Below are positions 8,706 through 23,120 of a stretch of 64,000 bases of DNA, piece by piece (position 1 is the first letter of the stretch; the number at the start of each line of letters is the position of its first letter). The translations under genes were made by a program, and so were the position numbers. Below the pieces are notes generated by a model. The model did not search any database, was not told the DNA's origin, and worked only from the letters and a program-made list of their open reading frames with translations. Origin of the DNA: Pseudomonadota bacterium (GTDB lineage: Bacteria > Pseudomonadota > Gammaproteobacteria > Burkholderiales > Burkholderiaceae_C); assembly GCA_963204815.1 (NCBI GenBank), contig CAUJHQ010000029.1, forward strand, positions 62,001 through 126,000, given 5' to 3'.

Positions 8706-9202
8706 GGCGCCACCCCCAGCGCGGTCAGCAGGCTGGGCGGGACCTTCACGTTGGCGCATTGTTCGCCCTCCACGGTGGCGACGACCACCTGTTCCTGCTT
8801 CTGCAGCTTGCCGATGTCGGCTTGCGCCGCCAGGCGTTCGGCCTCGCTCTTCGCGGCGGCGAGGCGCGCGCGCGCGTCGGCGATCTCGGCCTGGATGCCC
8901 TGGCGCGAGCGCTGCAGCTCGGCAATGCGCTGGTCGCGCGCCTTCACGGCGCTGGCGAAGGCGGCTTCCTGCTGCTTGAACTCGTCCTTGATCTTCTGCG
9001 TCGCCTGCTCGTGTTCGCTGCCCAGTGCCGCCAGCCGCGCCTGCAGGTCCTTCGTCGTCTTCTGGTACTGCGCTTCGCTCTCGCGCGCCGAGGCCTCGAC
9101 GCGCGCGAGCGCCTCCTTCGCACCGCGCCCGCCCCAGCCGCCCAGGAAGTAGCCCGCCAGGCCGGCGGCGACCATGGCGATGATGAGCACCAGGTTTCTC
9201 AT
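8702..9202 (-). CDS. Inner-membrane anchored coiled-coil protein
   Basis: A 166-residue protein with one N-terminal membrane segment (about residues 3-22), then a long heptad-rich coiled coil over about residues 30-140. The C-terminus carries a single Cys (EGEQCANVKVP) near residue 150. The start follows AAAGGA, 6-8 bases upstream. It is coupled (ATGA) to the lipoprotein gene that follows. Together they could bridge the inner and outer membranes across the periplasm. The function is unknown. Confidence 0.7.
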   Translation of the reverse strand: MRNLVLIIAMVAAGLAGYFLGGWGGRGAKEALARVEASARESEAQYQKTTKDLQARLAALGSEHEQATQKIKDEFKQQEAAFASAVKARDQRIAELQRSRQGIQAEIADARARLAAAKSEAERLAAQADIGKLQKQEQVVVATVEGEQCANVKVPPSLLTALGVAP

Positions 9203-9409
9203 GCAGGGTCCTTTCGCGCCCCGGGCCGGCCCCTGCGGGGCATGGAGGCCGATGGGCGGGCGCACGGTAGCGCAAGCCTTCCGGCACGCACAGGCCTAGG
9301 TCGTGGCCCCGGCGCCGATACAGCGCCTGACACCTGTTGCCGGCCGGCGCGCGCCGGCACCTGTGAACGGGCGGGCCACAAGCACGCCCGGCGGGTTCAC
9401 ACTCGGGGG
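9203..9409. other. Intergenic region between the coiled-coil pair and a secreted-protein gene
   Basis: A divergent gap with no gene seen. It holds a GC-rich perfect palindrome (GCCGGCGCGCGCCGGC) at about 9342-9357. No convincing promoter was read on either strand. Confidence 0.4.
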
Positions 9410-10060
9410 ATGCGTGCCTTCCACCCGCCCCGCCCGGCCCTCGTGGCCACCCTGATCCTGCTGCCGGTGCTGGCGCAGGCCGAAACGCCGGCCCCCAAGG
9501 GCGCCGGCCCGAGCCCCGACGCCGTGGCCGCCTGCGAACGCGCGGCGCGCCAGTCGCTGGCGCCGCAGACCGACCGGCCGGCCGACGTGACCTTCACCGC
9601 CGCACCCACGCTGGATGCCAGCCTGTCGGGCGACAGCCTGGTGGTGCTGCGCGGCGCCGGCCGCTGGCGCAGCGCCACCGGCCCGCGCAGCTTCACCTAC
9701 AGCTGCAACATCGACCCGCGCAACGCCGAGAGCGTGGGCCTGGTGATGCGCGACACCACGCCGCCCGGCAGCGCCGCCGCGGCGCCGCGCCCGCAGCCCG
9801 AGCCCGACCTCAGCCACCTGTCGCCCGCCGCCTGCGAGTCCGGCGCCGCCGCCGCGCTGAAGCGGCGCTGGCCCAACGTGTCGCAGATCAGCTTCGACAG
9901 CGCCACGCGCAGCCTGCAGCAGGAAACGCCGGGCAAGGCCGAACTGCGCGGCCAGGGCCGCGCGATGCCGGGCCCGGGGCAGCCGACGACGATCTTCCGC
10001 TTCGACTGCGAGATCGACCCGCGCGACGGCCGCGTGCAGGGCGTGCGCGTGTCCGGCTGA
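9410..10060 (+). CDS. Secreted protein with two copies of a small Cys-containing module
   Basis: A 216-residue protein with a signal peptide (cleavage near ALAQA, about residue 24). The mature part holds two related modules of about 70-75 residues. Each begins with an (A)AC-x3-A motif (VAACERAARQSL; PAACESGAAAAL) and ends with an aromatic-Cys-IDPR motif (FTYSCNIDPRN; FRFDCEIDPRD). Each module has two Cys, which could form a disulfide in the periplasm. A Pro-rich linker separates them. No named family was recognised. The duplication is read directly from the sequence. Confidence 0.7.
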   Translation: MRAFHPPRPALVATLILLPVLAQAETPAPKGAGPSPDAVAACERAARQSLAPQTDRPADVTFTAAPTLDASLSGDSLVVLRGAGRWRSATGPRSFTYSCNIDPRNAESVGLVMRDTTPPGSAAAAPRPQPEPDLSHLSPAACESGAAAALKRRWPNVSQISFDSATRSLQQETPGKAELRGQGRAMPGPGQPTTIFRFDCEIDPRDGRVQGVRVSG

Positions 10061-10091
10061 AGCCGCGGCCGCGTCCGCGAGAATGCGGCCC

Positions 10092-10352
10092 ATGAACGAA
10101 CCGACCCCGACCCCGCCCGACCTGCCGCCGCTGCCCGACCGCCTGTCGGTCGACCCGCGCAGCCCGCACCACGTGGCCACCGCCTTCCAGCGCGACATCG
10201 GCATCCGCTTCAACGGCAAGGAACGCTCCGACGTGCAGGAGTACTGCATCAGCGAAGGCTGGGTGCGCGTGCAGGCCGGCAAGGCGGTGGACCGCAAGGG
10301 ACAGCCGCTGACGATCAAGCTCAAGGGCACGGTCGAGGCCTTCTACCGCTAG
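10092..10352 (+). CDS. DUF3297 family protein
   Basis: An 86-residue protein with the signature of DUF3297: LPDRLSVDPRSPHH, then GIRFNGKERSDVQEYCISEG and a C-terminal LTIKLKGTVEAFY. The whole family length is present. The function is not established. An in-frame ATG three codons earlier (10083) is possible; 10092 fits relatives better. It ends 8 bases before the aldolase-family gene, so the two may be co-transcribed. Confidence 0.85.
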   Translation: MNEPTPTPPDLPPLPDRLSVDPRSPHHVATAFQRDIGIRFNGKERSDVQEYCISEGWVRVQAGKAVDRKGQPLTIKLKGTVEAFYR

Positions 10353-10360
10353 GAAGCGCC

Positions 10361-11299
10361 ATGCTGCTGACCGCCGACGCCCGCGGCGTCTACCCCATCG
10401 CGCCGACGCCCTTCTTCGACGACGGCCGCGTCGACACCGCCTCGATCGACCGCCTGGTCGACTTCTACCTGCAGATCGGCGCCACCGGCATCACGGTGCT
10501 CGGCCAGCTCGGCGAAGCGCCGAAGCTGGCGCATGCCGAGAGCGTGGACATCGCGCGCCGCATGATCCGCCGCGCGCCGCAGCTGCCGGTGATCGTCGGC
10601 GTCTCGGCGCCCGGGTTCGCGCCGATGCGCGAGCTGACGCAGGAGGTCATGGCCGCCGGCGCGGCGGGCGTGATGATCGCGCCGCCGAACACGCTGCGCA
10701 CCGACGAGCAGATCGTCGGCTACTACCGCCAGGCGGTCGACGCCATCGGCGCCGACGTGCCCTTCGTGCTGCAGGACTACCCGCTGACGTTCAGCGTGCA
10801 GATGACGCCGGCGGTCATCCGCCGCATCGTCGACGAACTGCCGAGCTGCGTGATGCTCAAGCACGAAGACTGGCCAGGGCTGGAGAAGATCTCGGCGCTG
10901 CGCCAATGGGAGCGCGAAGGCAGCATGCGCCACATCGCCATCCTCTGCGGAAACAACGGCCTCTTCCTCGACTACGAGATGGAGCGCGGCGCCGACGGCG
11001 CGAACACCGGCTACGCCTTCCCCGACATGCTGTGCGACGTGGTACGCCTGTCGGCCACCGGCGAGCGCGAGGCCGCGCACGACCTGTTCGACGCCCACCT
11101 GCCGCTGCTGCGCTACGAGCAGCAGCCCGGCGTCGGGCTGGCGGTGCGCAAGTACCTGCTGATGCGGCGCGGGCTGATGACGAGCGCGGCGATGCGCAAG
11201 CCGGCGGCGGCGCTCACGGCCACGGCACGGGCCGAGGTGGAGCACCTGCTGGGCCGGCTGGCGCGGCACGACCCGCGAGCGCGGCTGGGCGCGGGCTGA
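10361..11299 (+). CDS. Dihydrodipicolinate synthase (DapA) family aldolase/lyase
   Basis: A 312-residue TIM-barrel class I aldolase of the DapA/N-acetylneuraminate lyase family. The Schiff-base Lys167 (VMLKHED), the partner Tyr140 (LQDYPL) and the pyruvate-binding GQLGE turn near residue 50 are visible. The GQLGE turn differs from the GTTGE of true DapA and there is no lysine-pathway neighbour. A catabolic 2-keto-acid aldolase or hydratase-lyase is therefore more likely than lysine synthesis. The substrate cannot be told from the sequence. Confidence 0.85.
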   Translation: MLLTADARGVYPIAPTPFFDDGRVDTASIDRLVDFYLQIGATGITVLGQLGEAPKLAHAESVDIARRMIRRAPQLPVIVGVSAPGFAPMRELTQEVMAAGAAGVMIAPPNTLRTDEQIVGYYRQAVDAIGADVPFVLQDYPLTFSVQMTPAVIRRIVDELPSCVMLKHEDWPGLEKISALRQWEREGSMRHIAILCGNNGLFLDYEMERGADGANTGYAFPDMLCDVVRLSATGEREAAHDLFDAHLPLLRYEQQPGVGLAVRKYLLMRRGLMTSAAMRKPAAALTATARAEVEHLLGRLARHDPRARLGAG

Positions 11300-11592
11300 G
11301 CATCGGACCGAGCCTCGGGCTCGCGTATGGGCAGGCCGAGGCCCGAGCACGAAGTCGCGCCATCTGGCGCAACCGCAGGCTGCGCCTCGCGTTGAGCCCA
11401 GTGCCGGTCCGCAGCGGCCGGCCGCGCACGCCCCGCAGCTGGGCTTGCGCCAGAACCGCAGGTACGGTGTCTTCTCGCTGAACGCCAGGCCGCGCGCCGG
11501 CGGTGTCGCGAGAGCCCACGCGCGACCTACCGGTCACCGATGACATCGGCGCCGCCGCCCGGGGCGCGCCCGTGCGGGCCCGCGCCGCCCTG
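11300..11592. other. Gene-free stretch after the aldolase gene
   Basis: No credible coding region was found on either strand. A 7-bp stem with a 17-base loop (11312-11342, GCCTCGG/CCGAGGC) lies 13 bases after the aldolase stop and could be a weak terminator, but there is no T-run. The rest shows no recognisable element. The following bases hold the half-site array described separately. Confidence 0.5.
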
Positions 11593-11657
11593 GTGATGAA
11601 GCAGCCTCACATCGATGGGTGAGGCGCGGCTCACCCACGCGAGTGAGCGCGATTCAC
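11593..11657. promoter_or_regulatory. Array of alternating TCAC/GTGA half-sites upstream of the amide genes
   Basis: Five four-base half-sites alternate in orientation: TCAC 11607, GTGA 11619, TCAC 11631, GTGA 11643, TCAC 11654. The start-to-start spacing is 12, 12, 12 and 11 bases. An extra GTGA lies at 11593. The centre is a perfect inverted repeat GGGTGAG-N6-CTCACCC (11617-11636). The array ends 132 bases before the fmdB start. A near-identical arrangement occurs at 19875-19924. Regular helical-turn spacing argues for cooperative binding of a regulator, perhaps the LuxR-type protein of this locus. That the site works as an operator is an inference. Confidence 0.6.
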
Positions 11658-11789
11658 CGCGGCATGCGATTCGGCGCCGCCGCTGCGCCATCAGTATCGA
11701 CCCGTCGCCCGAAGCCTTCGGGAGCACCGCCTTCACGACCGGCCGCCCGAGCCGGCAAGGCGGGCCACAACACTGGACGGAGACACGCG

Positions 11790-12083
11790 ATGGCCCTTTA
11801 CGAGTACCGGTGCGAGACGCACGGCAACTTCGACATCCAGCGCCCGCTCGGCACCGCGCCGGAGACCGTCGCCTGCGCCGTCTGCGGCGAGCCTTCGCGG
11901 CGCGTCATCTCGGCGCCGATGGTGATGACGTCCACCCGCAGCGCCTGGTCGGCGGCGATCACGCACGCCGAGAAGAGCCGGTACGAGCCCGAGGTGGTGA
12001 GTTCGCTGCCGTCGGCCGGCCCGGGGCGCCGCATCACGACGGCGCAGATGACACCCGCGCTGCGCAGCCTTCCCAGGCCGTGA
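11790..12083 (+). CDS. fmdB: FmdB-type zinc-ribbon protein
   Basis: A 97-residue protein starting MALYEYRCETHG, the hallmark N-terminus of FmdB zinc-ribbon proteins. A second Cys pair (CAVC, about residues 30-33) follows. The first half of the ribbon reads C-x-x-H rather than C-x-x-C (YRCETHG). The C-terminal part is less conserved. FmdB was described as a putative regulator in formamide operons, and here it precedes the formamidase gene. The start has a GGAGA-like site (cggagacacgcgatg). It is the first gene after the TCAC/GTGA array. Confidence 0.85.
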   Translation: MALYEYRCETHGNFDIQRPLGTAPETVACAVCGEPSRRVISAPMVMTSTRSAWSAAITHAEKSRYEPEVVSSLPSAGPGRRITTAQMTPALRSLPRP

Positions 12084-12093
12084 CCCACGCGGC

Positions 12094-12119
12094 GCGCGCC
12101 CCGTGACCGCGGGGCGCGC
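12094..12119. terminator. Strong GC hairpin between fmdB and fmdA
   Basis: A perfect 10-bp stem (GCGCGCCCCG/CGGGGCGCGC) with a 6-base loop starts 10 bases after the fmdB stop. Only a short TTT follows, so it may be an attenuating or mRNA-protecting hairpin rather than a full Rho-independent terminator. Confidence 0.45.
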
Positions 12120-12201
12120 AATTGGTGGGTTTCCAAGAGCGATTGCAAACAGGTTCCGGAACTCCGGAGTGGTCAGCAACTGACGGACGAAAGGTCTCGA
12201 C

Positions 12202-13458
12202 ATGCCCAAGAATCTATTTCCCCTGGACAACACCAAGAAGTTCAAGGACCAGAAGCTGGTCGGCCACAACCGCTGGCACCCCGACATTCCCGCCGCGGTG
12301 ACCATCAAGCCCGGCGAGGTCTTCCGTGCCGACTGCCGCGAGTGGTTCGACGGCGCGATCAAGAACGACGACTCGGCCGACGACATCCGCCACGCGCCGC
12401 TGCCGGGCGTGCACGTGCTCTCAGGGCCGTTCCACGTCGAAGGCGCCGAGCCGGGCGACCTGCTGATCGTCGACATCCTGGAGATCGACGCCTGCGACCA
12501 GGAAGACTCGGGACCGCTCTCCGGCCAGGGCTGGGGCTACACCGGCGTGTTCGCGAAGTCCAACGGCGGCGGCTTCCTGACCGACCGCTTCCCCGACGCC
12601 TACAAGGTGATCTGGGACTTCCGCGGCGACGTCGCGACGTCGCGCCACATCCCGGAGGTGTCGTACACCGGCATCCACCACCCGGGCCTGATGGGCACGG
12701 CGCCTTCGGCCGAACTGCTGGCGCGCTGGACCGCGCGCGAAACGGCGCTCATCGCCACCGACCCGATGCGTGTGCCGCCGCTGGCGCTGCCACCGCTGCC
12801 TGACAGCGCGATCCTCGGGTCGCTGAAGGGCGCCGAGTTCGACCGCGTCGCGCGCGAGGCGGCCCGCACCGCGCCGCCGCGCGAGAACGGCGGCAACCAG
12901 GACATCAAGAACCTGACCGCCGGCAGCCGGATCTTCTATCCGGTCTTCGTGCCTGGGGCGAAGCTGTCGTTCGGTGACCTGCACTTCTCGCAGGGCGACG
13001 GCGAGATCACGTTCTGCGGCGCGATCGAGATGGGCGGGTTCATGGACCTGCACGTCGACCTCATCAAGGGTGGCATGGCCAAGTACGGCGTGAAGGAGAA
13101 CGCCATCTTCATGCCGGGCAACCGCGACCCGCAGTACTCGGAGTGGATCGCCTTCTCGGGCGTCTCGGTCGACAGCAGCGGCAAGCAGCACTACCTGGAC
13201 TCGTGGCTTGCCTACGCGAATGCCTGCAACCACGCCATCGACTACCTGATGAAGTTCGGCTACACGGACATCCAGGCCTACATGATCCTGGGCACGGCAC
13301 CCGTCGAGGGTCGGCTGTCGGGCGTGGTCGACATCCCGAACGCGTGCTCGACGATCTACATCCCGCGCGCCATCTTCGACTTCGACGTGCGCCCGTCGGC
13401 CAAGGGCGCGCCGCACCAGGTCAAGCAGGGGCTGCAAGTGCCTCGATCGAAGAACTGA
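12202..13458 (+). CDS. fmdA: Formamidase/acetamidase
   Basis: A 418-residue member of the FmdA/AmdA family, which hydrolyses formamide or acetamide to ammonia and the carboxylic acid. Typical blocks are GPFHVEGAEPGDLLIVDIL (about residues 74-92), HPGLMGTAPS (about 155-164), GDLHFSQGDGEITFCGAIE (about 260-278) and MILGTAPVEGRLSGVVDIPN near residue 365. The length matches known formamidases (about 405-415). A GAAAGG site precedes the ATG. It is surrounded by fmdB, amiS and a second fmdB, which supports formamide or a short-chain amide as substrate and ammonia supply as the role. Confidence 0.93.
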   Translation: MPKNLFPLDNTKKFKDQKLVGHNRWHPDIPAAVTIKPGEVFRADCREWFDGAIKNDDSADDIRHAPLPGVHVLSGPFHVEGAEPGDLLIVDILEIDACDQEDSGPLSGQGWGYTGVFAKSNGGGFLTDRFPDAYKVIWDFRGDVATSRHIPEVSYTGIHHPGLMGTAPSAELLARWTARETALIATDPMRVPPLALPPLPDSAILGSLKGAEFDRVAREAARTAPPRENGGNQDIKNLTAGSRIFYPVFVPGAKLSFGDLHFSQGDGEITFCGAIEMGGFMDLHVDLIKGGMAKYGVKENAIFMPGNRDPQYSEWIAFSGVSVDSSGKQHYLDSWLAYANACNHAIDYLMKFGYTDIQAYMILGTAPVEGRLSGVVDIPNACSTIYIPRAIFDFDVRPSAKGAPHQVKQGLQVPRSKN

Positions 13459-13478
13459 CCGCACGCCGCGTACGCCAC

Positions 13479-13498
13479 CGGCCGCCCGCGGGCGGCCG
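13479..13498. repeat. 20-bp perfect palindrome after fmdA
   Basis: CGGCCGCCCG followed directly by its inverse complement CGGGCGGCCG, 21 bases after the fmdA stop. It is a likely mRNA hairpin. With the next hairpin it forms a stacked structure between fmdA and amiS. Confidence 0.5.
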
Positions 13499-13517
13499 CT
13501 CGACGCGCCGGGGGTCC

Positions 13518-13544
13518 GGCGCCGGCCCTCCGCAGGCCGGCGCC
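13518..13544. repeat. Second hairpin between fmdA and amiS
   Basis: A 10-bp stem (GGCGCCGGCC/GGCCGGCGCC) with a 7-base loop, 38 bases before the amiS start. It lacks a T-run. It may set differential stability of the fmdA and amiS segments of the mRNA. Confidence 0.45.
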
Positions 13545-13582
13545 GGCCGTCGGCCGCCCACGACACACTGAGGGGACACACC

Positions 13583-14095
13583 ATGCTGGGTCTTGTTCTG
13601 TTCTTCGTCGGCGCCGTGCTGTGCCTCAACGGCCTCTGGCTGCTGGGCCGCATCGGCGACAACGAGATCTCGATCATCAACTACCTCGTCGGCGGCATCA
13701 CGCTGCTGGCTTGCCTGTTTCTCGCCTTCGGGCCGGGCGCCGATGCCGGGTCGATCAAGGCCGCGGCGCTGACCTTGCTGTTCACGTTCACCTACCTGTG
13801 GGTGGCGGCGAACCGGACGAACGGCGCCGACGGGCGCGGGCTTGGCTGGTTCAGCCTCTTCGTCGCCATCACCGCGGTGCCGGTGACGCTGCAGACGCTG
13901 GAAGGCGCCACCACGACGTGGGGCTACTGGTTCGCCATCTGCTGGGCGGCCTGGGCGTTCCTGTGGTTCCTCTTCTTCGTGCTGCTGGCGTTGAAGAAGC
14001 CGATCGCCAAGTTCGTGGGCGGCGTCACGCTGGCCGAGGGCGTGCTCACCGGCTGGTTGCCGGGCTACCTGCTGCTGAACGGCCTGCTGAAGTAG
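13583..14095 (+). CDS. amiS: AmiS/UreI family amide or urea channel
   Basis: A 170-residue membrane protein with about six hydrophobic segments and the family blocks LNGLWLLGRIGDNEISIINY, FTFTYLWVAAN and WAAWAFLWFLFF. AmiS/UreI proteins form inner-membrane pores that let urea or short amides through. The site between fmdA and fmdB genes fits uptake of the formamidase substrate. A GAGGGGA site precedes the ATG. It is separated from fmdA by two strong hairpins. Confidence 0.9.
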   Translation: MLGLVLFFVGAVLCLNGLWLLGRIGDNEISIINYLVGGITLLACLFLAFGPGADAGSIKAAALTLLFTFTYLWVAANRTNGADGRGLGWFSLFVAITAVPVTLQTLEGATTTWGYWFAICWAAWAFLWFLFFVLLALKKPIAKFVGGVTLAEGVLTGWLPGYLLLNGLLK

Positions 14096-14127
14096 GCCGC
14101 GCCCCGGCCTCAGAGGAGCGACGACCG

Positions 14128-14364
14128 ATGCCCCTGTACGACTACCAGTGCGCGGACTGCGGTGACTTCCGCGAGATCCGGCCGATGGCCGAGTCCACCA
14201 GCGCGCAGCCCTGTCCGGTCTGCGGCGTGCCGGCGCCGCGCTCGCTGTCGGCGCCGTTCCTGGGCGGCGGTGCGCCAGGCGGCTGGCTGCGGCCCACGGC
14301 GTCGAACGGCCAGCGCGTGCCATGGCGCGCCGCCTGCGGCCTGGGCTGCACGCACGCACACTGA
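14128..14364 (+). CDS. fmdB: Second FmdB-type zinc-ribbon protein
   Basis: A 78-residue protein starting MPLYDYQCADCGDF with the complete C-x2-C knuckles (CADC and CPVC) of an FmdB zinc ribbon. It differs clearly from the FmdB at 11790, so the operon carries two versions, one at each end. A GAGGAG site lies about 11 bases before the ATG. Its C-terminus carries two further Cys (AACGLGCTHAH). It runs convergently with the receiver/EAL gene. Confidence 0.88.
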   Translation: MPLYDYQCADCGDFREIRPMAESTSAQPCPVCGVPAPRSLSAPFLGGGAPGGWLRPTASNGQRVPWRAACGLGCTHAH

Positions 14365-14392
14365 CGGACCGCGCGAGCCAGGCGCGAGCCGG

Positions 14393-15673
14393 CTAGTGCG
14401 AAGCCCGGCGGCCGTGGCGCAGGAAGTCGGCGACGTCGGCGGGCGCGCAGGCCGGCGCCAGCGCGTCGCCCTGGCCGATGTCGCAGCCTTCCCACTTGAA
14501 GAACTGCGCGTCGGCATCCGTCGAGATGCCGTCGGCGACGGAGACGATGTTCAGCGTCTGCGACAGCGCGATCAGCGACCGCGCCAGCGCCATGCGTTCG
14601 GGCGCGTTGACGACGCCCCGCACGAACAGCCGGTGGATCTTCAGCCGGTCGGGCACGACGTGGTTCAGTCGCTGCAGCGAGATCGTCTGCGCGCCGAAGT
14701 CCACCAGCGTCAGGCTGACGCCGGCGGCGCGCAGCGCGGCCACGGCGTCGCGAACCCCGGCGCCGTCGCCCAGCAGCGCGGCTTCGCTGACCAGCAGGTC
14801 CAGCGTGCCGGGCGCCAGCCCGGACTCGCGTGTCGAGCGCAGCACGGCGTCGAGGGTGGCGCAGTCGCCGACGGACTCGCCGACGAGCGGGATCGACACC
14901 TTCAGCGGGCCGCCATCGCGGCGCTGCCAGGCCCGGCCCCAGAAGCTGGCCTGCGCGAGCATGAATTCGACGATGCGCAAGCGGGTGGCGGCGTCGAAGC
15001 CGGCCACGCCGACGCGTGCCGCAGGCAGCAGGCCCAGCGAAGTCTTCCAGTGCGGCACCAGTTCGATGCCGGTCACCTGGCTCGAGGCCAGCGCCACCTC
15101 CGGCTGCGCCTGCATCAGCACGACGTCGCGCTCGTCGAGGCCGGCGAGTTCGGCCGCCAGCGCGACGCGCGCCGGGTCGTGCGGCAGCGGCGCCGGCGAG
15201 CGGGCGGCGACGCCCGTCCGCCCGCGCAGCGCACGGGCGTGCCTGTAGCCGCGCAGCGCCGAGATGACGATCGAGTGCAGGCGCTGCGCCGTGATCTCGG
15301 TCTTCAGGAAGTAGCCGTTGATCTCGTAGCGACGCATGATGTCGCCCTCCGGCGCGACGCCGGGCTGGCCGGTGCGCAGCACGATCTGCATGTCGATGTC
15401 GCGCCGCTGCTCGCGGATGTGCTGCACCAGCGCGATACCCGCGTCGTCGGTCTCCATCACCACGTCGATCAGCGCGAGCGCGATGTCGGCGTGGCGCGCG
15501 AGCAGGTCGCGCGCCTGGGCGGCCGAGTCGGCGCTCAGCAGCTCGACGTCGCGCCCCTCGAACGCGAGGCCGGCGAGGATCAGGCGCGACATCTCGTGCA
15601 CGGCCGGCTCGTCGTCGACGAGCAGCACGCGCCAGCCGGCGGGCTCGGGCGGAGCCGGGTGCTCAGGGTGCAT
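14393..15673 (-). CDS. Receiver protein with degenerate EAL output domain
   Basis: A 426-residue response regulator. Residues 14-135 form a receiver (LLVDDEPAVHE, ALIDVVMETDDAG). The C-terminal 240 residues match the EAL (c-di-GMP phosphodiesterase) fold, but the catalytic motifs are eroded. EAL reads ELV, DDFG reads VDFG, KIDR reads KIHR and AEG(V)E reads ADGIS. It is probably not an active phosphodiesterase and may bind c-di-GMP or a protein. The start at 15673 overlaps the end of the permease-kinase gene by 11 bases, so it is the likely partner of that kinase. Confidence 0.85.
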   Translation of the reverse strand: MHPEHPAPPEPAGWRVLLVDDEPAVHEMSRLILAGLAFEGRDVELLSADSAAQARDLLARHADIALALIDVVMETDDAGIALVQHIREQRRDIDMQIVLRTGQPGVAPEGDIMRRYEINGYFLKTEITAQRLHSIVISALRGYRHARALRGRTGVAARSPAPLPHDPARVALAAELAGLDERDVVLMQAQPEVALASSQVTGIELVPHWKTSLGLLPAARVGVAGFDAATRLRIVEFMLAQASFWGRAWQRRDGGPLKVSIPLVGESVGDCATLDAVLRSTRESGLAPGTLDLLVSEAALLGDGAGVRDAVAALRAAGVSLTLVDFGAQTISLQRLNHVVPDRLKIHRLFVRGVVNAPERMALARSLIALSQTLNIVSVADGISTDADAQFFKWEGCDIGQGDALAPACAPADVADFLRHGRRASH

Positions 15674-18422
15674 CGGGTCGGGTCCTCGGCAGGGTCCCGA
15701 GCATGCGGCCGACACTCGCCGACCTGCGGGCCACGCGCGGGAAGTGGACGACGAAGCGCACGCCGCGGCCGACGTCGCTGTCGAGCGAGATCGTCCCGTC
15801 GAGCTGGCGCGTCACGATCTGGTTGACGATGTACAGGCCGAGGCCGCTGCCGCCCGCACCGCGGCGCGTGGTGAAGAAGGGCTCGAACACGCGCCCCTGC
15901 AATGCCGCGTCGATGCCGCGGCCGTCGTCGACGAGTTCGAGCCGCACGGCGTCGTCGTCCTCGTCGAGTTGCGCACGCACGGTGATGCGGCCGCCCGGGC
16001 GCTCGCCGCCGAAGGCGTGCTGCATGGAGTTGACGGCCAGATTCGTCACCACCTGCGCCAGCGCGACCGGGTAGCTTTCCAGCTCGATGCCCGGTGCGAT
16101 CTCGATCTGCACCTCAGCGCCGGCCTCCGCCAGGCGCGGCCGGAGGTCGCGCAGCGTGTCATCGACCAGTGCGCGCAGGTCGAAGCGGCGCCGCGTCTCG
16201 CTGATGCGGTCGACCGCGAGCTGCTTGAAGTTCAGCACCAGCTGCGCCACGCGCGTGGCGTTGGAGAGCAGCAGCCGCGCCGACTCGGCGGCATCGCGCA
16301 GGTAGGTCTCGCGCGCCGGTGCGTCGAAACGGCCCGCCTGCTGCAGCACCTGCGCCGCCGCGGTGCGGTCGCTCAGGTACGACGCCGTGCTGACCGAGAT
16401 GCCGACCGGCGTGTTGATCTCGTGCGCGACGCCCGCCACCAGGCCCCCCAGCGACGCCAGCTTCTCGGTCTCGACCAGGCTGGCGCGGGTACGCTCCAGG
16501 TGCTGAACCGATTCGAGCAGTTCGCGTTCGGACTGCTCCTGGCTCTCGTGCGACAGCACGATCCACCAGATGCCGAGCGACGCCACGACCAGCGTCGCGA
16601 CGTACAGGCGCGTCATCACGTGGACCAGGCTGTCGCGGTTCGTCACCTCGTGCAGGTCCATGAAGCGATAGGTCAGCAGGAATGCCGCGCCGAGCAGGGC
16701 GGCCGTGACGCTGAGCAGGCCGAGGAAGCGGCCGAAGCGGCGCAGCACGTGCGGCTGGAAGCGCCGTGGGCGGTCAGCGGCCGACGTGCCCGCGGCCACG
16801 CTCGACGGCGGGCGCTTGCAGAAGTCGTGGCAATGCAGCTCGAGCCCGCAGCACAGCGAGCACAGCGGCCCGCTGTAGAACGGGCAGTGCGTCATGTCGG
16901 GCGCCTCGTACTCGCGCTCGCAGATGCAGCACTCGACGAGCGTCGGTGCCGGCAGGCCGCGGAAGTGCTCGTCGCGCCGGGCGATGTAGTACCGGCCACG
17001 CGTCGCGTACGCGATGGCGATGGCCGACACGAACGACACCGCGAGCGCGATGAAGCCGAAGAACGCGCGCCCGGCGGCACCGAAGACGCCAGCGTAGGCC
17101 AGCAGCGCGACGACGGCGGCGATCACGGTGCCGCCGCAACCGACCGGATTGAAGTTGTAGAGGTGGCCGCGCTTGAACTCGATGTACGGCGGGCTGATGC
17201 CGGTGCGCTTGAGCACGACGAGGTCGGCGACGAGCGCGCCGATCCAGGCGATCGCGACCGTGGAGTACACCGAAAGCACCGCCTCCAGGGTCTCGAAGAT
17301 GCCCATCAGCGACAGCAGCAGCGCGATGACCACGTTGAACACCAGCCAGACCACGCGCCCCGGGTGGTAGTGCGCCAGGCGCACGAAGCAGTTCGACCAC
17401 GCGAGCGAGCCGCTGTAGGCGTTCGTCACGTTGATCTTGACCTGCGACACGGTGACGAAGATCGCCGCCAGCGCGAGCGCCAGCACCGGGTCGCCCACCA
17501 CCTGCCGGTAGGCGTGCACGAACATGTGCGCCGGTTCGACCGCCTGCGCCGCGCTGCTGCCCATGCGCAGCGCCAGCACCGCCAGCAGGCTGCCGGCGGT
17601 GACCTTCAACGCCCCGATGACGATCCAGCCCGGGCCGGCGGTGAGCATCGCCGTCCACCATGCGCGCCGGTTGACTGTGTTGCGGTCGGGCAGGAAGCGC
17701 AGGTAGTCGGCCTGTTCGCCGATCTGCGCCACGAGCGAGAACAGCACGCCCGAAGCGGCGCCGAACATCAGCAGGTTGATGCCGCTGCCGCTGCCGTCGA
17801 GCCCGGCGTAGGCGGTCCACTCGGTCAGCAGTGCCGGGTCCTTGGCGAGGATGTAGACGAAGGGCGCCACCAGCATCACCACCCAGACCGGCTGCGTCCA
17901 TGCCTGCAGCTTGTTGATCGAGGTGACCCCGAAGAACACCAGCGGGATGATGACGAGCGAGCACAGCAGGTAGCCGACCGCCAGGCTCAGGCCGAAGGCG
18001 AGTTGCAGCGCCTGCGCCCAGATGGCGGTCTCGATGGCAAAGAAGATGAAGGTGAACGAGGCGTAGATCAGCGACGTGATCGTCGAGCCGATGTAGCCGA
18101 AGCCGGCGCCGCGCGTGAGCAGGTCGATGTCGACGTTGGCGACACTGCACCAGTACGCGATGGGAAGGCTGACGACGAAGATCACGATCGAGACGATGAC
18201 GATCGCGAGCATCGCGTTCTGGAACCCGTAGCTGAGCGTGATGCTCGCCCCGATGGCTTCGAGCGCCAGGAACGAGATGCCGCCGAGCGCGGTGTTGGCC
18301 ACGGTCGCGGGCGACCAGCGCCGGTACGAGCTGGCGGCGTAGCGCAGCGCGTAGTCCTCGAGCGACTCCTTGGCCACCCATGACTGGTATTCGCGCTTGA
18401 CCCGCAGCATTGCCCGCGCCAC
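15663..18422 (-). CDS. NCS1-type permease fused to a histidine kinase
   Basis: A single 919-residue frame. Residues about 20-480 form a permease of the NCS1 type (nucleobase/hydantoin/allantoin transporters), with about 12 membrane segments. Residues about 497-540 hold a Cys/His-rich knot (ECCICEREYE, HCPFYSG, CSLCCG, CHDFC) that probably binds zinc. Two more membrane segments (about 560-630) follow, then a dimerisation domain with His667 (GVAHEINTPVG) and an ATPase with N (TNLAVNSMQHAF), G1 (DDGRGI) and G2 (GGSGLGLYI) boxes. It is an apparent transporter-sensor, comparable in logic to CbrA (SLC5 plus kinase). Adjacent amide genes suggest a nitrogen compound as signal; this is an inference. 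Confidence 0.9.
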   Translation of the reverse strand: MARAMLRVKREYQSWVAKESLEDYALRYAASSYRRWSPATVANTALGGISFLALEAIGASITLSYGFQNAMLAIVIVSIVIFVVSLPIAYWCSVANVDIDLLTRGAGFGYIGSTITSLIYASFTFIFFAIETAIWAQALQLAFGLSLAVGYLLCSLVIIPLVFFGVTSINKLQAWTQPVWVVMLVAPFVYILAKDPALLTEWTAYAGLDGSGSGINLLMFGAASGVLFSLVAQIGEQADYLRFLPDRNTVNRRAWWTAMLTAGPGWIVIGALKVTAGSLLAVLALRMGSSAAQAVEPAHMFVHAYRQVVGDPVLALALAAIFVTVSQVKINVTNAYSGSLAWSNCFVRLAHYHPGRVVWLVFNVVIALLLSLMGIFETLEAVLSVYSTVAIAWIGALVADLVVLKRTGISPPYIEFKRGHLYNFNPVGCGGTVIAAVVALLAYAGVFGAAGRAFFGFIALAVSFVSAIAIAYATRGRYYIARRDEHFRGLPAPTLVECCICEREYEAPDMTHCPFYSGPLCSLCCGLELHCHDFCKRPPSSVAAGTSAADRPRRFQPHVLRRFGRFLGLLSVTAALLGAAFLLTYRFMDLHEVTNRDSLVHVMTRLYVATLVVASLGIWWIVLSHESQEQSERELLESVQHLERTRASLVETEKLASLGGLVAGVAHEINTPVGISVSTASYLSDRTAAAQVLQQAGRFDAPARETYLRDAAESARLLLSNATRVAQLVLNFKQLAVDRISETRRRFDLRALVDDTLRDLRPRLAEAGAEVQIEIAPGIELESYPVALAQVVTNLAVNSMQHAFGGERPGGRITVRAQLDEDDDAVRLELVDDGRGIDAALQGRVFEPFFTTRRGAGGSGLGLYIVNQIVTRQLDGTISLDSDVGRGVRFVVHFPRVARRSASVGRMLGTLPRTRPDAP

Positions 18423-18531
18423 TCCCGTCGATGTGGGTTCACCGGAAGCAGCGAGCGTATCCCAACCGGCGTGCCGACCGACCCCTGTTTGACCGCATGC
18501 CGGGCCCCGGGGCGGGGCGGTCCATTGCCGA

Positions 18532-18559
18532 TTGACAGACGGACCGCTGCGGTGAGAAT
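18532..18559 (+). promoter_or_regulatory. Predicted sigma70 promoter of the LuxR-type gene
   Basis: A perfect -35 (TTGACA, 18532-18537), a 16-base spacer and a -10-like GAGAAT (18554-18559) point to transcription starting about 100 bases before the regulator ATG at 18667. It is based on sequence match only. Confidence 0.5.
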
Positions 18560-18666
18560 CCGACAGGCTTCACAGGTTCTGAGCCAGTGCCCGGGCCGCA
18601 ACATCAGCCCGCACCGCGCCGGCCGCAACCGACGCAGACGCGGCGCGCAAGCGGAGCTGAATCTTC

Positions 18667-19818
18667 ATGGCGAGGTCGAACACCGGTCCCGAAGGCATCC
18701 CAGCGACGGCGTCGCTGGTGCGCGCCATCCATGCCGCGGCGCTGAATGCCGGTGAATGGCCGTCGGTCCTGGAGCGCCTGCGCGCCCACCTGGACGCCCG
18801 CGTCGTCACGCTGGGGCGCCACGAGTTCGCCACCGGCTCGGATTCGTCGATGGTCGAATCGCCGGGCAGCCAGGCCTTCGGCATCGGCATGGCCGAGTTC
18901 TCGGCGCGCAACCCGTGGTTCCTCTCCAGCGACGACTACCTGCCGGGTCGCGTCATGACGGGCGACGAACTGATCAGCCACAACGACCTGCGCCGCACCG
19001 ACTTCTATCGTGGATTCCTGCAGCCGCGCGGCCTGCTGCACCTTTTGTGCGGCGTGGTCGACCAGCGCCCGCGCAGCGCCCACGTGCTGTCCGCCTACCG
19101 GGCCGAGACGCAGCCACCCTTCGACGCGCGCGAGAAGAGCGAACTCGCGAGCCTGCTCGACCACGTCACGTTGGCGCTGCAGGCCCAGTGGCGGTGGCAG
19201 GAGGCACACGAGCTGGCGCAGGCGCTGCTGGGTCTGTCGGACCACGACGCGAACCCCGCCATTCTCGTCACGGCCGACGGCGAGCCGATCTACAGCAATC
19301 CGGCTGCGCGCCTGCTGCTGGAGCGTCACCACGGCCTTCGGCTCGACGGCTCGCACGTGGTCGCCGCCAGTGCCGGCGAGCGGCGCCTGCTGAGCGAGAC
19401 CATCGCCCGCGTGGCACGCGAAGACGCCGTGCACGACAGCGCTGCTCCGGCGGTTCTGACGATCGCCAACACGCCGCCGCTGCCGCCGGTGGTGGTGGTG
19501 GTGCGGGCGGCCGGCCAGGTCTTCCGCCAGCATGTCGGCGCGCGCCGCGGTCTCGTGATGCTCGCGGTGCGAGGCAGCCATTCCGGGCACGACCCGGCGA
19601 CCTGCGTCTTCGCCCGCCAGTACGAGTTGACGGCAGCGCAGTCGAAGGTGAGCGCGCTGGTCTTCGCGGGCCAGTCGCTGTCGACGATCGCACAGTCGCT
19701 CAACCTCTCCGAGAACACGGTGCGCAGCCACCTGAAGCAGATCTTCCAGAAGACCGACACGCACGGTCAGATGGAACTCGTGCACCTGCACGCGCGCGTC
19801 TGCCCGACGCTGCCGTAG
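18667..19818 (+). CDS. LuxR-family transcriptional regulator
   Basis: A 383-residue protein. The last 65 residues are a LuxR helix-turn-helix (LTAAQSKVSALVFAGQSLST, then IAQSLNLSENTVRSHLKQIF). The N-terminal 300 residues carry no receiver domain and look like a PAS/GAF-type sensing region of unknown ligand. It is divergent from the permease-kinase gene. Binding sites are unproven, but the two TCAC/GTGA arrays flanking the cassette are candidates. A GGAG site precedes the ATG. Confidence 0.88.
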   Translation: MARSNTGPEGIPATASLVRAIHAAALNAGEWPSVLERLRAHLDARVVTLGRHEFATGSDSSMVESPGSQAFGIGMAEFSARNPWFLSSDDYLPGRVMTGDELISHNDLRRTDFYRGFLQPRGLLHLLCGVVDQRPRSAHVLSAYRAETQPPFDAREKSELASLLDHVTLALQAQWRWQEAHELAQALLGLSDHDANPAILVTADGEPIYSNPAARLLLERHHGLRLDGSHVVAASAGERRLLSETIARVAREDAVHDSAAPAVLTIANTPPLPPVVVVVRAAGQVFRQHVGARRGLVMLAVRGSHSGHDPATCVFARQYELTAAQSKVSALVFAGQSLSTIAQSLNLSENTVRSHLKQIFQKTDTHGQMELVHLHARVCPTLP

Positions 19819-19874
19819 CGGCCCGGCGCGGCGACATCGCTCCGGCGGCCTCACCGCCGAAGACGAGACCCGCC

Positions 19875-19924
19875 TCACCCGAATGGGTGAGGTCACGTCA
19901 CCTGCGACGGTGATGGCGACTCAC
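19875..19924. promoter_or_regulatory. Second array of alternating TCAC/GTGA half-sites
   Basis: Half-sites TCAC 19875, GTGA 19887, TCAC 19898, GTGA 19910 and TCAC 19921 are spaced 12, 11, 12 and 11 bases. An extra TCAC lies at 19893. The first pair lies in a perfect inverted repeat CCTCACCC-N4-GGGTGAGG (19874-19893). The array lies 192 bases before the ZIP-like gene and 56 bases after the regulator stop. It mirrors the array at 11607-11657 in order and spacing. Confidence 0.6.
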
Positions 19925-20116
19925 CCTGCAAGATGCCGCGACCCTGCCGCGCGCCGATGAGCCGGCGTGCCCGCGCAGAGGGATTCGACCTCGCGGCGCG
20001 CGGCCTACGATCCGGCATGCCGTCGCCACCGCGACTGCCGGTCGTCCTGCGTCGGGCAAGGTGACCGGCGCAGCCGCGGCCAGGACGACGACGGTGCTCG
20101 CGGGAGGGATCGCGCC

Positions 20117-20899
20117 ATGGGCGGCTTCGACGTCGTGCTGACTGCATGTCTGCTGGTGAATGCCGCCGGCCTCGGCGCCGCCGCGTTCGTGTTGTTGCGG
20201 CCGGGCGCCCGGCCGACAGGGCCGCGTCTGCTCAGCTTCTCGATGGGCGTGCTCGTCGGCACCGTGCTGCTCGAACTGCTGCCGCACCTGTGGGAGGCCA
20301 CGGGCAGCGCCGTCACCGTGGCCGCGATGTTCGCTGCCGCCCTGCTGGTGAGTTGGTGGCTCGACCGCGTGTGTCCCTGCGCCGGGCATCTGCCGGGCGA
20401 CGGCACCGACGGCCATGCCCGTCACCACGCGCCGGTGGCGCCGGCCCGCCGGGGCGCGCTGCTGTGGGTCGGCGACTTCGTGCACAGCGTCGTCGACGGC
20501 GCCGTCATCGGCGGCGCACTGGCGCTGGGGGTCGTGCCGGGCGGTGTGGCCACGATGGCGGTGGCGGTCCACGAAGTGCCGCGCCGCATTGCCGTCGTGA
20601 CGCTGCTCGTGCGCGCCGGGCACCGCCCGCTGCCGGCGTTGCTGATCACGGTCGGCACGGGCGGCGGCACCGTGGTCGGTGGGGCGCTCGTGTGGTGGTG
20701 GGCGCCGGCGATGTCGCTCGTGATGCCGGTCGCGCTCGCGCTGGCGGCGGCGGCCATGTTCTACGTCGCGCTCACGCACTCGTCGGGCCTGTCCGGTGCC
20801 GCATGGCGGCAGCGCTTCGCGGCCGAGCGGGCGCTGCCCTTCGTGGCGGGCCTGCTGATGATCCATTTGTCGCACCACGCACACGAACTGCTGGGTTGA
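20117..20899 (+). CDS. Divergent ZIP-family metal transporter-like membrane protein
   Basis: A 260-residue protein with about seven to eight hydrophobic segments. The ZIP signature of transmembrane helix 4 is recognisable (GDFVHSVVDGAVIGGAL), as is helix 5 (AVHEVPRRIAV). Compared with classical ZIP zinc/iron transporters, the helix 4 Asn after His is Ser and the second Glu of helix 5 is Arg. A His-rich loop (GTDGHARHHAP) lies between. Whether it moves metal is uncertain. The ATG has a GGGAGGGA site upstream. It lies downstream of the second half-site array, suggesting co-regulation with the amide genes. Confidence 0.75.
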   Translation: MGGFDVVLTACLLVNAAGLGAAAFVLLRPGARPTGPRLLSFSMGVLVGTVLLELLPHLWEATGSAVTVAAMFAAALLVSWWLDRVCPCAGHLPGDGTDGHARHHAPVAPARRGALLWVGDFVHSVVDGAVIGGALALGVVPGGVATMAVAVHEVPRRIAVVTLLVRAGHRPLPALLITVGTGGGTVVGGALVWWWAPAMSLVMPVALALAAAAMFYVALTHSSGLSGAAWRQRFAAERALPFVAGLLMIHLSHHAHELLG

Positions 20900-20900
20900 C

Positions 20901-21035
20901 GGCAAGCAGCGGCGGCGCGCGCAGCACATCTTCCGCATCGATCCGCAGCGCTGCCTGAACCGAGGTGCCGGCAAGCCGAAATTCGTTGCCGCCATCCTGG
21001 CGGGTCCGGCAAGCCAGGTCCGGGCCGCGGTCGAG
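20901..21035 (+). pseudogene. Relic of a transposase C-terminus
   Basis: The frame beginning at 20901, directly after the ZIP-like stop, translates to a segment including QHIFRIDPQRC, LNRGAGKPKFVAAIL and AGP. This matches by eye the zinc-ribbon tail of Y-transposases of the IS91-like type (pattern FxIDxxxC-x2-CGxG-x-K-x4-AAI-x3-P), but the second Cys is Arg. No other part of a transposase and no element ends are visible. It is therefore a decayed fragment marking an old insertion or deletion. Confidence 0.5.
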
Positions 21036-21039
21036 CGAC

Positions 21040-21378
21040 CTATCCCAGCTGCTCCGCGAACCGCGACGCCGTGCGCCGGTAGCTCGCGCGCCCGCCCGGC
21101 ACGGTCGCGAAGATGCGCTGCCACTCGGCGCTGCCCAGCACCTCGGGCAGGCGGCGGCGGCGCTCGGCCATGTCGGCCCAGCGGATGATCCAGGTCACGT
21201 TCGGCGGGCCCAGCGGGTCCGGCGTGCCGGTGCCTTCGGGCGCGTCGGCGGTGGCGTACCAGAAGCCGACGACGTCGAGCGCGGCCTTCAGGTACGGGAT
21301 GCCCTCGGCCGCGGCCCAGCGCCGGAAGTCGGCGAAGACCGCCGGGTCGACGTGGTAGTGGCGCACCTCGTACAGCAC
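21040..21378 (-). CDS. NIPSNAP family protein
   Basis: A 112-residue protein starting at a GTG with a GAGGAGA site 8-10 bases upstream. The N-terminus MLYEVRHYHV and the block WIIRWADMAERRRRLPEVLG are typical of the NIPSNAP dimeric ferredoxin-like fold. These small proteins accompany catabolic operons; a biochemical role is not established. It starts 12 bases after the ThDP enzyme stop and is the last gene of the leftward operon from 26099. Confidence 0.8.
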   Translation of the reverse strand: MLYEVRHYHVDPAVFADFRRWAAAEGIPYLKAALDVVGFWYATADAPEGTGTPDPLGPPNVTWIIRWADMAERRRRLPEVLGSAEWQRIFATVPGGRASYRRTASRFAEQLG

Positions 21379-21389
21379 CGGCCGTCTCC

Positions 21390-23120
21390 TCAGCGCCGCT
21401 GCGGAATGCTCTCGTAGTACGGGATCACGACGTCGCCCTCGGCGATCGGCTTCAGCATGAAGTTGACGCGCGGGTGCGTGCACGAAGGATCGGTGTGCAC
21501 GTCGATCAGCGCCGGGCGGCCGCTGTCCAGCGCGCGCTGCATCGCCGGCGCCACGTCGGCGGCGCGCTTCACGGTCTCGGCGTGGCAGCCGAAGCCCTCG
21601 GCGATGCGGGCGTACGAGGTCTCGTCGCTCAGCCGGCTGATGGCGTCGTAGTCCTCGCCGTAGAGCAGCTGCTGGCCGTGCAGCGACATGCCCCAGACGC
21701 GGTTGTTCAGCACCACGGTGACGATGGGCAGCCGGCGCCGCACCATCGTGTCGAGGTCCTGCAGGTGGAAGCCCACCGCGCCGTCGCCGGCGATCTGCAC
21801 CACACGCTTGCCGGGGCGCGCGAGCTGCGCGCCGATGGCGAAGCCCATGCCGGCGCCGAGCAGGCCGAGGTAGCCGTTGTTGATGTACTGGCCCGGGCCG
21901 TCGACGCGGATCGAGTGCGCGGCCCACAGGCCCGACTCGCCGCCGTCGAGCACGTAGCTCGCGCTCGGGCCGGCAACGTCGATGACGGCCTTGGCGGCGT
22001 GGAAGGGGTGGATGCCGTGCGCGAGCTCCGCGGTGGTGTGCTGGCGCGCGTGGCCGTTCTTCGCGTCGGTGGCGCTGCGCGCCCACGCGCTCCAGTCGGG
22101 CCAGCGCGCGCCTTCGCTGGCCGCGAGCAGCGCTTCGATGGCGGAGCCGCAGTCGGCGGCGATCGGCACGTCGATGTCGCGGATGCGGCCGATCTCTTCC
22201 GCGTCGGCCAGCACGTGGATCAGCTTCGCCGCCTTCGGCAGCACCAGCGGCCGGCGGCCGCCGAGCGCCATGCCCGCCTTGGCGCCGAGGATCAGCACCA
22301 CGTCGGGCGCCTGGCCCGCGGCCTGCAGCGCGCCCAGGTTGGCGGCTTCGCTGCCGTACAGCGGGTGGTCCCAGGGCAGCATGCCGAAGGCGCGGCCGTT
22401 GACGAAGACGGGGATGCCGGCACGTTCGGCGAACGTGCGCAGCACGACTTCGCACTGCGCGAAGCGCGCTTCGCCGCCGCACACGATGACCGGCCGTGCC
22501 GCGCCGCGCAGCAGCGCCAGCGCGGCCTGCACCTCGGCCGGCGCCGGGGCCGGCCGCGGGTGTGTCGACAGCCCGGCCGGCAACGTGACCTCGGCCTCGC
22601 GCACCGGCATGTGCATGACGTCGATCGGCACCTCGATCAGCACCGCGCCGCGGCGGCCGGTGGTGGCCTTGCGGATGGCCATCGCCAGCAGATCGGGCAC
22701 GCGTTCTGGGTTCGTGATGCGGTGCGCCCACTTGACGCCCGGCGTCGCCATCGCCACCTGGTCGAAACCGCCCTGCAGCGAACCGCATTCGGCCTCGCGC
22801 AGCGGCGGTGCGCCGACGATGAAGAGCGTGGGCACGCCGTCGAGCTGCGCGTTCACCATCGCGGGGATCGCGTTCAGGTAGCCCGGCCCGGCGGTGACCA
22901 CGCACACGCCCAGGCGGCCGGTGGTGCGCGCGTGGCCTTCGGCGGCATGGCCGGCGGTGGCCTCGTGGCGGAAGTCGACCAGCTCCAGCGCGTGCCGGCG
23001 GCAGCCGCGGTAGAAGGCCTCGAGGTGGCCGCCGTGCAGCGCGAACACGCGCTCCACGCCGGCGGCCTTGAGGGTGCGGGCGATCAGTTCGCCGCCATCG
23101 GTGCGGGGGTCGTCGGCCAT
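21390..23120 (-). CDS. Thiamine diphosphate-dependent enzyme of the acetolactate synthase-like family
   Basis: A 576-residue protein with the three-domain layout of ThDP decarboxylases/ligases. The N-terminal pyrimidine-binding domain has Glu53 in FRHEATAG. A central domain follows, then a C-terminal PP domain with the GDG...NN cofactor motif (GDGAVGFHLQDLDT to VVLNNRVWGM). It is not a typical acetolactate synthase, because the usual HEQ is HEA and no regulatory subunit is adjacent. Neighbouring dehydrogenase, SDR and binding-protein genes suggest cleavage or formation of a 2-hydroxy- or 2-keto-acid. The substrate is unknown. Confidence 0.85.
   Translation of the reverse strand: MADDPRTDGGELIARTLKAAGVERVFALHGGHLEAFYRGCRRHALELVDFRHEATAGHAAEGHARTTGRLGVCVVTAGPGYLNAIPAMVNAQLDGVPTLFIVGAPPLREAECGSLQGGFDQVAMATPGVKWAHRITNPERVPDLLAMAIRKATTGRRGAVLIEVPIDVMHMPVREAEVTLPAGLSTHPRPAPAPAEVQAALALLRGAARPVIVCGGEARFAQCEVVLRTFAERAGIPVFVNGRAFGMLPWDHPLYGSEAANLGALQAAGQAPDVVLILGAKAGMALGGRRPLVLPKAAKLIHVLADAEEIGRIRDIDVPIAADCGSAIEALLAASEGARWPDWSAWARSATDAKNGHARQHTTAELAHGIHPFHAAKAVIDVAGPSASYVLDGGESGLWAAHSIRVDGPGQYINNGYLGLLGAGMGFAIGAQLARPGKRVVQIAGDGAVGFHLQDLDTMVRRRLPIVTVVLNNRVWGMSLHGQQLLYGEDYDAISRLSDETSYARIAEGFGCHAETVKRAADVAPAMQRALDSGRPALIDVHTDPSCTHPRVNFMLKPIAEGDVVIPYYESIPQRR

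Follow-up and report, generated by a model that had tools for sequence, protein, structure and literature searches.

In a 64,000-nucleotide stretch of a Pseudomonadota genome (Burkholderiaceae_C; assembly GCA_963204815.1, contig CAUJHQ010000029.1, positions 62,001 to 126,000), hereafter the window, a reverse-strand gene encodes a permease domain, a cysteine-rich knot, a two-helix hairpin and a histidine kinase in a single frame (Table 1). Its stop codon is overlapped by the ATG of a response regulator gene, so the pair may be translationally coupled. Genes for a formamidase and an amide channel lie close by. Here we describe the parts of this fusion kinase, the relatives in which they recur and the ligands to which their gene neighbours point.

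Table 1. Features of the fusion kinase and its surroundings, in window coordinates
Feature	Position	Strand	Basis or remark
Permease-knot-histidine kinase	15663..18410	-	915 amino acids from ATG 18410 (likelier start)
NCS1-fold permease domain, residues ~1-478	16977..18410	-	AlphaFold models compared with PDB; alignment A2
Helix-1 pair Leu50-Glu51 (915 numbering)	18258..18263	-	directly after predicted break 47-48
Eight-Cys knot, C498-C535 (919 numbering), treble-clef-like	16818..16931	-	predicted strands and short helix
Two-helix hairpin	16473..16754	-	predicted helices 553-585 and 592-646
Phospho-acceptor His667, H-box AHEINTP	16422..16424	-	sequence and alignment
HATPase_c domain	15735..16070	-	PF02518, 1.2e-24 (Pfam)
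Response regulator with degenerate EAL domain	14393..15673	-	PF00072, PF00563 (EAL 1.3e-31)
Second FmdB-type zinc ribbon protein	11790..12083	+	PF09723
Formamidase FmdA	12202..13458	+	PF03069, 5.5e-174; NF045496; convergent with kinase operon
AmiS/UreI family amide/urea channel	13583..14095	+	PF02293, 2.3e-58
FmdB-type zinc ribbon protein	14128..14364	+	PF09723
LuxR-type (GerE) regulator	18667..19818	+	PF00196; divergent from kinase
ZIP-family gene	20117-20899		PF02535

A permease, a knot and a kinase in one frame

The single frame encodes a real fusion. Full-length relatives occur in dozens of genomes, named ones among them, and in a draw of 398 genomes of the phylum the long kinase frame was matched without internal stops at 58 places in 52 genomes, in open frames of 894-1365 amino acids (at most four candidates were scored per genome, with no one-by-one check of the kinase half). 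A 552-residue frame in the draw, L123, was excluded as a kinase; it is an NCS1 relative that has no knot. A sequence-only reading of the window had proposed that one frame joins an NCS1-type permease, a Cys/His-rich knot, two extra membrane segments and a kinase with His667, and domain, alignment and model data bear this out. The same reading had raised a frameshift or assembly join, or an absence of fusions in relatives, against itself; when these were checked, full-length relatives were found instead. Together with the stop-free places in the draw, the relatives in named genomes contradict an assembly or frameshift error as the origin of the fusion, for which we found no supporting point and which we regard as negligibly probable. 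Database annotation already shows the fusion as such, because the family is named there after its components (for example, signal transduction histidine kinase/purine-cytosine permease-like protein). An alternative start at GTG 18422 would give a protein of 919 amino acids.

A locus scan of a genome collection kept 80 of 151 relatives as loci, to which a paralogue from the window's own genome (L002) was added; L001 is the window gene itself, and L003-L008, which matched in the kinase part only, were excluded. The loci comprise 41 with close-type kinases (798-977 amino acids as called, mostly 870-920), 38 with hybrid kinases (1043-1207 amino acids, two truncated by contig ends), one with a stand-alone permease (L086) and one row cut at a contig end (L077). 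Pfam confirmed REC, HisKA and HATPase_c domains in the hybrids L002 and L131.

When AlphaFold models were compared with the PDB, CodB and Mhp1 were the top transporter matches for the permease domain, with 15-17% identity in the structural alignments, which places the domain in the NCS1 fold. The alignments behind the models used part of the rows, 59 (A1) and 62 (A4). PF02133 (cut-off 23.5 bits) gave no match above cut-off for the window protein or for any of the 38 permease rows of A2. It did match two of six stand-alone relatives with the knot (P0216 at 38.6 bits and L129, from Klebsiella, at 37.7) and knot-less L123 at 36.4 bits, and did not match the stand-alones P0125, P0146, L130 and L131; to L086, Pfam assigned no family. 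The sole match of a permease profile to PDB sequences was a chance one (E 1.2), so the NCS1 assignment rests on the fold comparison. Kinases and stand-alone permeases, 62 rows in all, have 99 invariant positions in common.

In the kinase part, H667 is kept in 80 of 82 aligned rows, the other two having a gap. Pfam called only HATPase families on the window protein, without the HisKA call obtained for the two hybrids, and found no PAS domain; the interval between transporter and kinase is filled by the knot and the hairpin, which in the models is probably membrane-spanning and continues towards the kinase. No riboswitch or other RNA reached the gathering score in window positions 9000-22000, and a scan of five of the 38 hybrid-type loci gave a single tRNA and no other RNA.

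Urea and amide genes around the kinases

Close-type loci contain FmdA in 35 of 41 cases and AmiS in 34, and a recognised regulator lies next door to the kinase in 37. Among the 38 hybrid-type loci, 18 have FmdA, seven urease genes and nine an amidase, and a recognised regulator adjoins the kinase in 35. UrtA, counted strictly at an identity of at least 45% to a TIGR03407-confirmed UrtA, is present in 21 of 38 hybrid loci, divergent from and adjacent to the kinase in 18, and in none of the 41 close-type loci. We preferred this count because single-linkage clusters can absorb other amino-acid-type ABC genes, and dropped a looser Urt count (26 of 38 hybrid and 5 of 41 close-type loci); the binding protein encoded in the window at 24927-26099, for instance, was drawn into the loose UrtA cluster. 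Some urea or amide gene is found in 25 of 38 hybrid loci by the strict count and in 29 by the looser clusters. Neighbour genes were called by our own script and then clustered; cluster names were given partly by eye, with representatives checked by NCBIfam and Pfam, which named UrtA, B, C, D and E, formamidase, urease alpha, beta and gamma, UreE, a UreG-type protein and aliphatic amidase.

The draw of 398 genomes gave the same association. The kinase was present in 52 genomes, FmdA (E<=1e-40) in 41 and both in 39 (Fisher p 2.7e-40, with no kinship correction); counted by genus, FmdA was present in 30 of 213 and the kinase in 37 of 213. FmdA lay no more than 12 kb from 39 of the 58 kinase places, and 10 of the 13 kinase genomes that lack FmdA had UrtA within 11 kb. 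The paralogue in the window's own genome (C8; L089:9953-13390), a hybrid kinase, is divergent from urease genes, and a kinase of the family lies near urtABCDE on Sinorhizobium meliloti pSymB. The tie to amide-use genes that the sequence-only reading saw in the window recurs, then, in beta- and alphaproteobacterial loci and in the phylum-wide draw.

This gene company suggests that the fusion detects urea or small amides such as formamide, and linkage to urea and amide genes is what would be expected of a sensor for these compounds. Judging from sequence and gene order, we put the probability at about 0.7 that the fusion kinase acts as a transceptor whose ligands are urea and/or short-chain amides (formamide, acetamide). 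Both uptake and sensing of these nitrogen sources may fall to a single protein family. An alternative is that the NCS1 domain senses the classical ligands, nucleobases, hydantoin or allantoin, compounds that the sequence-only reading had listed among those to assay, and that its amide neighbours are incidental. CodB (cytosine) and Mhp1 (hydantoin) are its best fold matches, and some databases label relatives as purine-cytosine, cytosine or allantoin permease. The recurrent neighbours, however, are formamidase, AmiS, Urt, amidase and urease, and no purine, hydantoin or allantoin gene was recognised among the recurrent neighbour clusters; we consider the classical ligands improbable.

Several observations weigh against a urea or amide ligand. 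Six of the 41 close-type loci have no amide or urea gene; five of these are on contigs of 4-13 kb, and the sixth, the Vibrio locus L020, has full flanks. By the strict count, 13 of the 38 hybrid loci have none either, several of them with good flanks (L062, L067, L078). AmiS is found in none of the hybrids, and strict UrtA only in them, so the ligands of the two types may differ. The association statistics carry no phylogeny correction, and one stand-alone relative of the permease, from Streptomyces (L130), has no amide or urea gene nearby. In the window itself, the amide genes face the kinase operon and do not share an operon with the kinase, and Pfam finds no DNA-binding domain in the overlapping regulator, so there is no evident way for this pair to control fmdA directly.

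The cluster of this regulator occurs in 13 of the 41 close-type loci and in the window. The motifs DDFG and EGVE are catalytic in EAL domains; all 14 aligned regulators lack DDFG and also a Glu at the EGVE position, which makes phosphodiesterase activity unlikely. These degenerate-EAL regulators share a conserved QFFKWEGC-type ending. Regulators of the REC-GerE (LuxR) type stand beside the hybrid kinases in all six scanned of 35. In the alphaproteobacterial close-type loci examined there is a REC-kinase in L036, L024 and L022, and an OmpR-type regulator in L022. The cluster of the LuxR-type regulator divergent from the window kinase is found in 16 of 41 close-type loci. In Vibrio profundi (L020:12720-14996), the kinase is followed by a REC-DUF3369-GGDEF-EAL protein, in a locus that contains no amide genes.

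The cysteine knot and the helix-1 carboxylate

All eight knot cysteines are present in the 82 aligned rows, except for the last cysteine of L077, the row cut at a contig end. The locus scan had the knot peptide among its six search patterns, and its loci are thus no unbiased test of the knot. Loci drawn by the permease profile without the knot, available for 30 of the 58 places in the draw, had all eight cysteines in 30 of 30 cases. The knot is not peculiar to kinases, because it also ends stand-alone permeases: all eight cysteines occur in 120 of 120 (the best 120 of 5747 matches to L086, 509-610 amino acids), in 119 by the first pattern and in P0150 by a variant spelling. The supposition, made from the window alone, that a knot added to an NCS1 domain is unusual is therefore not supported. 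More distant stand-alones from Klebsiella and Acinetobacter keep only two CxxC pairs (CxxC..CxxC) and have lost the other four cysteines, a Streptomyces one retains five, and an Arthrobacter one almost none. The knot, modelled within longer proteins only, is predicted to form strands at 491-493, 500-502, 506-509 and 514-517 and a helix at 518-523, with a predicted local distance difference test score of 75-87 for the knot block in the full model and 84-90 in a shorter one. Pfam gave only weak matches (Prok-RING_1 in 2 of 34, best 0.0053), and the partial zinc-finger matches of a knot profile to the PDB, mostly over its first 20 positions, were not used as evidence.

The cysteine pattern in the Klebsiella and Acinetobacter stand-alones suggests two metal sites, 498/501/521/524 and 513/525/531/535, in a structural cap that some permeases lose; the Streptomyces pattern fits this model less well. 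An iron-sulphur cluster or a redox role is conceivable in place of such a metal-site cap. Should the knot itself be a metal or redox sensor, the permease would be merely a membrane anchor or transporter. The conservation of all eight cysteines in the aligned rows and profile-drawn loci, while some stand-alones have lost part of them, would fit such a role, as would the ZIP gene in the window. Yet every one of the 120 listed stand-alone permeases ends in the knot, and the losses in Klebsiella and Acinetobacter, though less so that in Streptomyces, are as expected of two structural metal sites. The sequence-only reading had inferred a possible metal-dependent step from the ZIP gene, which is real; its cluster is close by in only 5 of 41 close-type loci and in none of the 38 hybrid loci, and we rejected metal sensing through it as a family trait. 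A sensor knot seems to us a poor prospect.

Kinases and stand-alone permeases do differ in helix 1. In NCS1 proteins, substrate and ion are bound at a break in this helix, and in both models a break at 47-48 precedes the helix-1 pair. By pattern, all 120 listed stand-alone permeases and all five plasmid-collection examples carry Asp with Phe, Gln or Tyr directly after it. In kinases the pair is Leu, Met or Cys and then Glu, in 117 of 120 listed (the others have LD, LL and, in one, no match), in 40 of 41 close-type loci (one without a match), in 38 of 38 hybrid-type loci and in 29 of 30 drawn loci (one without a match). In the alignment, all 29 stand-alone rows have Asp at position 50, whereas all 18 close-type and all 15 hybrid rows have Glu at position 51. 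All stand-alone permeases fall on one side of a branch with support of 100 in a tree of 65 rows (SH-aLRT only), so that a single ancestral substitution may explain the difference. Because the branch to the outgroup L123 is very long and the close-type kinases do not group together, the tree gives no direction for the fusion, whether gain or loss of the kinase. A carboxylate one residue further along helix 1, at the predicted substrate or ion site, is a possible switch between receptor and transporter.

This difference bears on whether the kinase senses transport flux, or general nitrogen state, via its permease and not urea or an amide as such. The kinases do retain the invariant core, and the transporter domain of CbrA imports histidine according to the available text of its description (PMC13022988). 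A helix-1 carboxylate that sets kinases apart from stand-alones would, conversely, fit a sensor with lost or altered coupling, and we think flux sensing unlikely, although less so than either classical ligands or a sensor knot.

Stand-alone permeases were read in six contexts, five plasmid-collection records and L086 (L086 belongs to another phylum, and 249 genomes drawn from that phylum gave only L086 at E<=1e-80), and amide- or urea-type genes lie beside five of them. In a Klebsiella pneumoniae record, a permease annotated as cytosine permease (L129:7947-9554) is the last gene of a urease cluster, and may be the urea permease of that cluster. The Acinetobacter stand-alone (L133) is likewise in a urease cluster. 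That of Arthrobacter (L134) adjoins an aliphatic amidase, with an acetate-CoA ligase two genes beyond, and that of Methylovirgula (L131) is near an amidase, a formamidase and a hybrid kinase of the same family. L086 adjoins a CN_hydrolase gene. Going further, we tentatively propose, as a possibility that falls somewhat short of even odds, that an unrecognised NCS1 branch with an eight-cysteine cytoplasmic cap consists of urea and short-chain-amide permeases, the Klebsiella "cytosine permease" included. One sub-branch of it, with the shifted helix-1 carboxylate (Leu-Glu51 versus Asp50-X), would be receptors that signal the ligand to a kinase, either in addition to transporting it or in place of transport.

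A proposed signal route and known transporter-kinases

From what was computed here, namely the arrangement of domains and its conservation, the link to neighbouring genes and the family of stand-alone permeases, we infer a ligand, possible transport by the fused permease, kinase activity, a signal route and target genes. The NCS1-fold domain would bind urea or an amide, and the knot and hairpin would relay the conformational change to the kinase. His667 would then be phosphorylated and the phosphate passed to the product of the overlapping gene, the response regulator. Among related bacteria, the place beside the kinase, next to urea or amide genes, is occupied by REC-LuxR/GerE regulators (hybrids) or by a REC-kinase with a nearby OmpR-type regulator (alphaproteobacteria). 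In the lineage of the window, the output would be an EAL domain without the catalytic signature, which probably acts by binding. UrtABCDE and AmiS/UreI, encoded near hybrid-type and close-type kinases respectively, are other transporter types and not homologues of the permease domain; they are probable targets or partners of the kinase.

Among the literature matches listed, which covered few subscription papers, none examined an NCS1-kinase, connected a kinase with formamidase or dealt with the function of this family. A Dechloromonas genome table, in the part available, has a histidine kinase of 1131 amino acids listed two entries ahead of UrtA (PMC2907700), and its size and position would suit a hybrid-type kinase. 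A plasmid cluster for urea transport that includes formamidase is described in two Klebsiella papers (PMC5506382, PMC13060141), whose available text does not mention a kinase. In another Klebsiella record, of an IncFIB plasmid, a kinase of the family, of hybrid length and with the knot (L132:11971-15351), is divergent beside such a cluster of urtABCDE-formamidase genes. Klebsiella accounts for 340 of 511 matching plasmid records, and in most records the match is confined to the permease-knot part of the query.

Only a small number of transporter-kinases have been studied, and how transporters turn into receptors is still open. The present family offers matched stand-alone and kinase-fused permeases, with a shared core and a differing helix-1 carboxylate beside the predicted binding site. 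For kinases present in 52 of the 398 genomes drawn from the phylum it also suggests a specific ligand, and it includes a putative urea permease encoded in urease clusters. The best structural matches of the permease domain, CodB and Mhp1, are transporter chains without a kinase; the closer parallels are two transporter-kinases, each known here from part of its description. CbrA of Pseudomonas is an SLC5-STAC-PAS-kinase transceptor that binds histidine (PMC13022988). As in the window fusion, a LeuT-fold transporter domain is joined to a histidine kinase, whereas the permease of the fusion best matches NCS1 and is followed by an eight-cysteine knot and a hairpin, with no PAS domain found by Pfam. 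Ks-Amt5 of Kuenenia is an ammonium sensor in which an Amt module is fused to a kinase without PAS, HAMP or STAC domains (PMC5764959). It shares with the window fusion the re-use of a transporter module as a sensor of a nitrogen compound on a kinase, and differs in having Amt and ammonium where the fusion has an NCS1 fold with a cysteine knot and, putatively, urea or an amide as ligand. The window fusion is best read as an NCS1-based equivalent of CbrA and Ks-Amt5.

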